From the NCBI GenBank assembly GCA_016219375.1, contig JACRNC010000020.1:1-64000 (forward strand): a stretch of DNA of 64,000 nt, given 5' to 3'. Below the pieces are notes generated by a model. That model worked only from the letters and a program-made list of their open reading frames with translations. It did no database searches and had not been told where the DNA came from. Numbering within the stretch: position 1 is the stretch's first letter; each line of letters starts with the position of its first letter. This stretch comes from Burkholderiales bacterium (GTDB taxonomy: Bacteria > Pseudomonadota > Gammaproteobacteria > Burkholderiales > Burkholderiaceae_C). The position numbers and the translations under genes are program-made. Of this stretch, positions 24,918 through 26,838 are shown in pieces.

Positions 24918-26033
24918 TCAGCCGCCCAGATCGGGCAGCACCTCGTTGCGCAGGCCCTGGCGCACACGGTCCACGTCGGGGATGACGGAGCGCACCACGT
25001 CCCAGAAGCGCGGGCTGTGGTTCATCTCGCGCAGGTGGGCCAGCTCGTGGGCGACGACGTAGTCGATGGTGGCCATGCCCAGATGGATCAGCCGCCAGTT
25101 CAGGCGGATGGAGCCGTCGGCGCTGGCGCTGCCCCAGCGCGTCTGCGCGTTGGACAGCTGCAGCCGCGTCACGCGCACGCCCAGCTTGTCGGCGTAGTGC
25201 GTGCAGCGCTCCTCGAAGATGCGCCGGGCCTGGCGCTGCAGCCAGGCCTGCACCGCGTCGCGGATCTGCGCCGGCGCGGCGGTATGGGGCAGGCCCAGGT
25301 GCAGCGTCAGCCTGGGCACGCCGGGCAGGGCCTCGATATCGGTGTGCAGCACCGCGCCGGTGACGCGCTCGTCGAGCACCAGGATCACCGTCTCGCCCAG
25401 GAAGGGCAGCGATGCGCCGTCGGCCCATTCGATGCGGGCGGCCTCGCCGCGGCGGGCGCGCTCGCGCTGATCGGCCAGCTTGCTGCGGATCCACGCGGCC
25501 TTGGCATGCAGGGCCGATTCGATCTCGGCCACGCCCACCCAGCGCGGCGCGCGCACGCTCAGGCCTTCTGCGCTGACCACCATGCCGATGCTGCGGCGGC
25601 GCGCACGCGTGAGCTCGTAGGCGACCACCGCTTCGCCCAGGCGGATCTCGCGGCTGGCGCGCGGATGGCGAAAGAGCACCGTGGCCGCAGGCGGCTCCAC
25701 GCCGGGGGCCCCCGTGGACCGGGGCCGCGCGGGCGCCAGCGGCCTGCCCGGCGCGGGCGCCGGAGCGGGCGCGGGACCGGCCGCCGGCGCGGGCGCGGGC
25801 GCGGATGCAGGCTCGATCAGCCCGGGCCGATCGTCCGCCGCGATGGCACCGGCTGCCGGCAATACGCCGGGGGATGCCTCGCCCGCAGGCGGCCGGCCGG
25901 CGCCCGGGCGCACCGCACCGCGCCCGGCCGCATCGCCGGTCGGGCGGCGCCCTGCCACGGCGGCTTCCGCCTCACCGAACAGGCTGAGCTGCCCAGCCGC
26001 GGCCCGGGCGCTGTCGCGTGCGTCGCGGCTCAT
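24918..26033 (-). CDS. YgjP-type zinc metallopeptidase with N-terminal clamp motif and long linker
   Basis: 371 residues from the ATG at 26033; an ATG at 26093 would overlap plsC by 44 bp. The C-terminal 250 residues are the YgjP/COG1451 domain. The zinc site is H329-E330-L-A-H333 with H339 as likely third ligand, preceded by the conserved QTRWGSASADGSIRLNWRLI. Residues 15-19 read QLSLF, the consensus bacterial sliding-clamp-binding pentapeptide. Residues 20-118 are a low-complexity Ala/Pro/Gly linker. The fold is related to the WLM and SprT zincins, which include DNA-protein crosslink proteases. It ends the corC-lnt-glyQS-gmhB-plsC strand. Confidence 0.85.
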   Translation of the reverse strand: MSRDARDSARAAAGQLSLFGEAEAAVAGRRPTGDAAGRGAVRPGAGRPPAGEASPGVLPAAGAIAADDRPGLIEPASAPAPAPAAGPAPAPAPAPGRPLAPARPRSTGAPGVEPPAATVLFRHPRASREIRLGEAVVAYELTRARRRSIGMVVSAEGLSVRAPRWVGVAEIESALHAKAAWIRSKLADQRERARRGEAARIEWADGASLPFLGETVILVLDERVTGAVLHTDIEALPGVPRLTLHLGLPHTAAPAQIRDAVQAWLQRQARRIFEERCTHYADKLGVRVTRLQLSNAQTRWGSASADGSIRLNWRLIHLGMATIDYVVAHELAHLREMNHSPRFWDVVRSVIPDVDRVRQGLRNEVLPDLGG

Positions 26034-26049: not shown

Positions 26050-26838
26050 TCAGGCGGATGCGTGGCTGCGGCCCGCTTCGGTCGCGCCGGCATAGGCCTC
26101 GGGGTCCAGGCGGCGCATCTCGGTCTCGATCCAGCTCTCGACCGCGGCCATCAGCGATTCCACCGTATGCCCGGCCGGCAAGATCGGCGGGCCGACGGAC
26201 ACGTCGATCACGCCCGGGCGCTTGATCACCGAGTTCTTGGGCCAGCAGCGCGCCGAGGCCACCGCGATCGGCACGATCGGCGTGTCGGTGGCCACGGCCA
26301 GCCGGGCGGCGCCCGTCTTGTAGCGCCCCACGCGGCCGCGGCGGATGCGCGTGCCCTCGGGGAACATGATCATCCACATGCCCTGCTCCATGAAGCGCCG
26401 GCCCTGGCTGGCCACGCGCTCCCAGGCCTGCGTGCCCTTGGAGCGGTCGATGTGCACCATGTCCAGCCGCGCCATCGCCCAGCCGAAGAAGGGCACGTAG
26501 ATCAGCTCGCGCTTGAAGACGTAGCTCAGCGCGCGCGGCATCACGGTCGGGAAGAAGAAGGTCTCCCAGGTGGACTGGTGCTTGGAGCACAGGATGACGC
26601 GCTGGCCGCGGGCATGCAGGGTCTGGATGTGCGACCAGCCGTGCACCCGGTGGCGGATGCCGCAGATGTGTCGCGCACCGAAGAGCGCGATGCGCAGCCA
26701 GCCGGCGGCCACCCAGAACAGGCGCTCGCCGCGGATGCCGATGGACAGCACCATCATCATGATGGCCCACGGCACCACGGTGGTGGCCATCCACAGATTG
26801 AGCAGCAGCGAGCGCAGCGCCAGCAACGGCAGGTTCAC
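26050..26838 (-). CDS. plsC: 1-acyl-sn-glycerol-3-phosphate acyltransferase
   Basis: 262 residues with one or two N-terminal membrane segments. Makes phosphatidic acid at the inner membrane. The acceptor motif reads CSKHQSTWETFFFP, that is H-x4-E rather than the common H-x4-D, and the glycerol-phosphate motif is MFPEGTRIRRG. It overlaps gmhB by 4 nt (ATGA), so the two are coupled. Confidence 0.93.
   Translation of the reverse strand: MNLPLLALRSLLLNLWMATTVVPWAIMMMVLSIGIRGERLFWVAAGWLRIALFGARHICGIRHRVHGWSHIQTLHARGQRVILCSKHQSTWETFFFPTVMPRALSYVFKRELIYVPFFGWAMARLDMVHIDRSKGTQAWERVASQGRRFMEQGMWMIMFPEGTRIRRGRVGRYKTGAARLAVATDTPIVPIAVASARCWPKNSVIKRPGVIDVSVGPPILPAGHTVESLMAAVESWIETEMRRLDPEAYAGATEAGRSHASA

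Follow-up and report, generated by a model that had tools for sequence, protein, structure and literature searches.

This locus raises the question of why a YgjP-family zinc metallopeptidase should carry, near its N terminus, a peptide of the kind that binds the bacterial beta sliding clamp (DnaN). The gene lies in a 64,000-nucleotide stretch of DNA from a Burkholderiales bacterium (assembly GCA_016219375.1, contig JACRNC010000020.1, positions 1 to 64,000), which we call the window. A preliminary description had read QLSLF at residues 15-19, followed by an Ala/Pro linker and a YgjP zincin with HELAH, and translation of the open reading frame together with the PF01863 profile confirmed all of these elements. 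The features on which the analysis rests are as follows:

24918..26033, minus strand: ygjP-like gene, 371 amino acids; tail with a clamp-binding-type motif plus YgjP zincin domain
25977..25991, minus strand: QLSLF, residues 15-19, a five-residue clamp-binding-type motif, from the translation and orthologue conservation
25680..25976, minus strand: Ala/Pro-rich linker, residues 20-118, with mostly low model confidence up to residue 73
24921..25679, minus strand: YgjP catalytic domain, residues 119-371, of which PF01863 covers 149-363
25035..25049, minus strand: HELAH zinc/catalytic motif, residues 329-333; H329, E330 and H333 are invariant in 48 sequences
26050..26838, minus strand: PF01553 acyltransferase (plsC-like), directly upstream; the synteny marker that defines orthologues

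The ATG of the ygjP-like gene lies 16 bases past the stop of the upstream plsC-like gene, and an alternative, longer ATG at 26093 would overlap the acyltransferase gene. Upstream of the acyltransferase is a HAD hydrolase gene, and neither neighbour supports a role in DNA repair or crosslink removal. PF01863 matches residues 149-363 of the window protein (E 2.8e-52, 178.2 bits against a cut-off of 26) and has this single match in the window genome; the Pfam scan of the protein returned no domain beyond PF01863, and NCBIfam has no family for it. In the predicted model, the zincin fold and the active site are present, and a beta-rich N-terminal half and the tail come in addition to a minigluzincin-like part. 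Residues 7-36, 42-46 and 50-73 have pLDDT below 50, and taking low model confidence as disorder, we predict that the tail is disordered. QLSLF sits in a segment with local pLDDT below 50, accessible and probably disordered. The catalytic domain is basic, with a pI above 8.5 in 49/49 sequences.

When the predicted model was searched with Foldseek, minigluzincins came first (best 4jiu, E 2.2e-5, 26% identity), and the first match outside them was the yeast protease Wss1 (5xbn, probability 1.00, E 0.028), to which the E-values were weak (0.028-0.087). By profile, the window protein falls below the cut-off for both PF10263 (SprT-like; E 0.016, 15.5 bits versus 25.6) and PF08325 (WLM; E 0.023, 15.2 bits versus 26). 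The earlier placement of YgjP in the same broad zincin group as WLM and SprT therefore holds for the fold and not for the profiles, and by the sequence test the window protein is not a member of the SprT/SPRTN or WLM/Wss1 families. The SprT cut-off is passed by several other PF01863 places of the order sample (for example G175 C74, E 3.3e-10), and many of the SprT matches among the 200 genomes drawn from the order are in fact PF01863 genes, which bars a presence/absence comparison. At E 0.001, the SprT-like profile has no match in the window genome, and it has one in 7/14 controls, including E. coli and B. subtilis. Plasmid records label YgjP relatives "SprT family zinc-dependent metalloprotease"; 525 plasmid records carry such relatives, of which 354 are from Klebsiella and 400 are predicted to be conjugative.

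We examined 195 PF01863 loci, made up of the window's own, 80 from one scan of named genomes, and an order sample of 30, 24 and 60. An order-wide draw of 200 genomes contained PF01863 in 184, and the order sample was nonrandom, consisting of the 30 best-scoring matches of the 200-genome scan, 24 loci from 20 named handles and 60 hand-picked loci, about one per genus, chosen before the tails were seen. Orthologues were defined by synteny, as loci with plsC directly upstream, the tail playing no part in the definition. This kept 150 loci and dropped 45 (34 without plsC, 3 with plsC not directly upstream, 6 with no callable start and 2 duplicates). When 13 of the dropped loci were rechecked, 3 had the strict motif defined below, 4 a form ending in W and 6 neither; 30 further dropped loci, copies without plsC, served as a control. 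An N-terminal extension, defined as 10 or more residues ahead of the domain, was present in 97/150 orthologues and missing from 53. Start calling scored L110 and L066 as lacking an extension or motif, though QLELLF and LQLDLF are in frame there, and the motif counts lean low at these two loci because of it. We called a motif strict when it fitted Q-[LIVA]-x-[LM]-[FL] or Q-[LIVA]-x-[LM]-x-[FL], the five- and six-residue clamp-motif classes for which both expressions are published, as given in PMC13254535.

The strict motif was found in 57 of the 97 extensions, compared to a mean of 2.57 and a maximum of 9 when the extensions were shuffled (2000 trials). A further 17 carried a loose version of it (QFVLDFF, QMELPL and QLTLPW among them), and 23 carried neither. 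The excess persisted among 49 representatives below 70% domain identity (27 strict; shuffled mean 1.29, maximum 6) and in each source, with 41/69 for named loci (shuffled 1.84) and 15/27 for the order sample (shuffled 0.70), the window making the 57th. The two other forward frames gave 0/69 and 0/27 strict matches each, and reversed sequence only 2/69 and 0/27. A median permuted expression matched 2/97. On the other hand, near-synonymous permutations scored about as well as the true expressions (31 matches for Q[LM]x[LIVA][FL] versus 32 in the five-residue class; up to 32 versus 29 in the six-residue class) since they still catch the same peptides, which makes this control only partly useful. 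The preliminary description had raised the possibility that the motif is absent or random in close orthologues; the counts against shuffled sequence speak against this, although 23 of the extensions fit neither form.

Strict matches outside the N-terminal extensions of orthologues were few. They comprised 1/30 among 29 class-sample loci plus E. coli (QIRMNL, L208), 1/30 among those PF01863 copies of the order sample that lack plsC (QLKLL, L093), and 6/150 among C-terminal tails of orthologues, five of these in one Roseateles-type group and one at L059. We treat all of these as probable chance matches. In the Roseateles-type loci L021, L022, L023, L025 and L026, the C-terminal match is a second, six-residue one, QAVLPL or QVVLPL. 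Within the order sample, the strict motif occurs in 9/35 family codes; QIWLF at L170 looks like a chance match, and its family code has another strict match. Tails without the strict motif also show patterns of their own. Eight of the 23 with neither form have R for Q (RFTLDLF, RYTLDLF, RYTLNLF); at these loci (L024, L027, L028, L030, L032, L049, L053, L055), which belong to Rhodoferax and its relatives, the hydrophobic part is preserved, and the motif may have been weakened or retargeted. In Aquabacterium and its relatives, the peptide ends in W (QLSLW, QLNLW, QLGLW). In L137 and L138, of the window's own family code, QQAWRWLVPP or AQRSWDWLVPP replaces the motif as a different conserved tail peptide.

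Conservation also singles out the motif. Across 24 disjoint pairs of relatives with a mean domain identity of 0.79, the motif was identical at 120/132 positions (91%) and the rest of the extension at 529/1422 (37%), in a test that required the loose motif in both members and thus favours the motif. When 35 pairs were chosen by domain identity alone, the best-conserved six-residue segment fell on the motif in 17, read off by eye with ties going to the first segment and with 3 R-type pairs among them; in the remaining 18, it lay elsewhere or only partly on the motif, and the pair that includes the window gene was misaligned. In orthologues with the strict motif, between 1 and 99 residues (median 33) separate the motif from the domain. 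Together with the strict count and the pair identities, this bears out the expectation that a QL[SD]LF-type motif would be kept while the linker varies.

Positions not fixed by the expressions also favour residues of known clamp peptides. Position 2 is L in 26/27 representatives, and at position 3 the published clamp-motif preference for S or D is seen in 11/27, with E in 7 more, against a background of 16% for S, D and E combined. In the six-residue form, position 5 is P or D in 13/14 (background P 18%, D 5%). The five- and six-residue forms (QLSLF; QLDLPL, QLSLPF) interchange between close relatives. In a domain-only FastTree, QLSLF of L009 is sister to QLSLPF of L004 with support 97, and the window's QLSLF is joined by a weak fork to the QLDLPL found at two Methylibium loci. 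In the same tree, a single group of 101 rows, itself held by a weak fork, takes in 56 of the 57 strict rows together with 17 loose rows, 18 that fit neither form and 10 that lack an extension; outside this group, 43/49 rows have no extension. Since the tree is quick and has many weak forks, we relied on it for close pairs and drew no conclusion from it as to whether a single gain was followed by losses or several gains took place. The absence of an extension from 53 of the 150 orthologues shows that docking, as predicted from the motif, is an added feature that is dispensable in many lineages and not essential to the basic activity of YgjP.

An in-frame GTG follows the QLSLF codons in the window gene and leaves a later start possible for this gene alone. 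On the other hand, the 22 genes with QLSLF use 14 different 15-mer DNA spellings, and conservation with synonymous codon variation argues that the motif is translated. The concern that the true start lies past residue 19 is thus countered by the codon variation and kept alive, for the window gene, by the GTG. A codon pattern covering all spellings of QLSLF matched four times in the 3.58 Mb genome (both strands, all frames), and the same pattern read backward matched twice. Only the window gene translates to QLSLF, the others giving QLSFF twice and QLTLF once. The QLTLF lies at L263 (contig C10 of the window genome, 98109-98123, minus strand) in an ORF ahead of its ATPase part, and judged by eye this ORF looks like PhoH.

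Hda, a known clamp binder and a DnaA-type AAA+ protein whose domain is unrelated to YgjP, offers a comparison from the clamp side, as its six-residue clamp-type peptide stands at the N terminus ahead of the enzyme domain, as in the window orthologues. The E. coli Hda peptide QLSLPL is described as tight binding in PMC12309361. We sought Hda in 28 genomes and scanned 27 loci. Read by eye, each of the 20 readable N termini carries Q-[LIM]-x-L-x-[LIVW] close to its start; the fifth position is D in 11 of them, E in 4 and P in 1. Of these 20 peptides, 12 fit the strict expressions, which thus miss a fair share of real motifs; the proportion caught is of the same size as the 57/97 for YgjP. Hda variants such as QLTLDL, QLALDI and QIPLPL are close to the QLTLDL, QLALDF and QLDLPL of YgjP, and QLTLDLF (L037) and QLALDLF (L048) are near copies of Hda peptides. 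The DnaN of the host is 42% identical to that of E. coli and has the same residues at R152, L155, T172, G174, H175, R176, L177, P242, V247, N320, Y323, S346 and M362-R365, which we take to line the peptide pocket of the clamp. Identification of QLSLF as a beta-clamp-type motif, first made from the published consensus, is now well supported by conservation, the two motif classes, Hda and these DnaN residues, all of which are sequence evidence. Judging from these comparisons, we think it very probable that the motif binds the clamp.

We considered and rejected a chance motif in a biased leader on the basis of the shuffles, the conservation of motif versus flanks, and the frame and reverse controls. 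An ordinary YgjP with an unselected peptide would fit a leader that is high in GC and rich in Ala and Pro, and the lack of the strict motif in 40/97 extensions, but no shuffle reached the observed counts, and the flanks are much less conserved than the motif, whose codons vary synonymously; we give this reading hardly any credence. It is also improbable, though less so, that the peptide serves as a short linear motif recognized by another partner, or as a degradation signal, with only a coincidental likeness to clamp peptides. The eight orthologues with R for Q, a change that a clamp motif should resist, would fit such a reading, as would the terminal W of Aquabacterium and relatives and the different conserved peptide of L137 and L138. 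However, the two clamp-motif classes interchange between close relatives, the free positions lean toward residues of known clamp peptides, and Hda is alike.

Our best explanation, which we regard as somewhat favoured by the evidence, is a clamp-tethered YgjP that acts on proteins stuck to DNA. A YgjP-family zinc metallopeptidase would be tethered to DnaN by its N-terminal QLSLF, which on a flexible leash would dock in the hydrophobic pocket of the DNA-loaded clamp. Docking would keep the basic zincin domain close to freshly replicated or gapped DNA, where it could cleave proteins stuck to DNA, crosslinked covalently or otherwise. That the substrates are proteins on DNA is probable, if less certain than the binding. 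Crosslink repair in the strict sense is an analogy that draws on the resemblance to Wss1 and SPRTN, the basicity of the domain and the position of other family members close to type I restriction genes, and we put it forward tentatively. Counted against the explanation as a whole are the 23/97 extensions with neither form, the 53/150 orthologues with no extension at all, the plsC and HAD hydrolase neighbours, which are no repair genes, the weak Wss1 E-values, and the GTG past the motif, from which a start could remove the tail, as well as a report, in PMC7782752, that the PIP box of SPRTN itself is dispensable for fork recruitment. The same motif evidence would fit a docking that serves regulated turnover of a clamp partner (a polymerase, Hda or an initiator) or of a clamp-bound regulator. 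Motif-less PF01863 genes are widespread, which points to a clamp-independent basic job to which the tail may add a substrate, and Hda in the same order has near-identical peptides that would compete for the pocket. However, nothing points to a specific substrate for such turnover, and the basic domain and Wss1-like fold suggest work near DNA; we consider this alternative unlikely.

Copies of PF01863 away from plsC are often located near type I restriction genes in the order sample. Frames were listed for 14 of the 34 loci without plsC, and one neighbour was scanned for each of 10 (L082, L091, L096, L105, L107, L108, L111, L159, L161, L174), revealing nine HsdR domains and one HsdS domain that is not directly adjacent; size and position guided the choice of neighbours, so these counts give no rate. 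Among the plasmid matches listed, NZ_CP104897.1 overlaps an HsdR gene. The copies near restriction genes, which are without the motif, suggest that the YgjP family can work around DNA-bound machines, and a protease linked to HsdR may merit its own study.

For the putative clamp-tethered YgjP, our findings suggest a protease held at replicating DNA in the window bacterium and many of its Burkholderiales relatives. A conserved peptide of the clamp-docking type is a concrete handle on where a YgjP protease works, with proteins at replicating or gapped DNA as the predicted substrate pool, and the uneven distribution of the tail within a single order supplies natural controls. If crosslinks are removed, this would be a bacterial clamp-coupled protease pathway parallel to SPRTN-PCNA. 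A literature search, with subscription papers mostly and bioRxiv entirely outside its reach, turned up nothing that connects YgjP with the clamp and no paper establishing the job of the widespread YgjP family, and no report of a clamp-binding bacterial metalloprotease was among the matches listed, which is weak evidence of novelty.

Among known systems, the best fold matches of the window protein are the minigluzincins proabylysin, jannalysin and selecase, whose chains among the matches listed have 104-112 residues and to which the window protein adds its N-terminal beta-rich half and tail. E. coli YgjP, the namesake of COG1451/YgjP, from a genome that also served as one of our PF01863 controls, shares HELAH but has 167 residues and no N-terminal extension; it ends in LTQLSLGQNKI (L196, 10961-11464), where the C-terminal QLSLGQ is a near miss outside the published motif. 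Wss1, the yeast WLM crosslink protease, resembles the window protein as an HExxH zincin and as its first fold match beyond the minigluzincins, and differs in that the WLM profile stays below the cut-off. SPRTN has, in addition, ubiquitin- and p97-binding parts and belongs by sequence to another family (PF10263, E 0.016 for the window protein). According to PMC7782752, SPRTN is likewise a zinc metallopeptidase with a sliding-clamp peptide outside the protease domain, one that is lost with the C terminus, whereas the peptide of the window protein is N-terminal and the clamp bacterial. SPRTN would be a functional analogue if the crosslink step holds, and it is conceivable, though we would not count on it, that Burkholderiales independently evolved an SPRTN-like, clamp-docked crosslink metalloprotease, built on YgjP rather than SprT and with an N-terminal rather than a C-terminal peptide.
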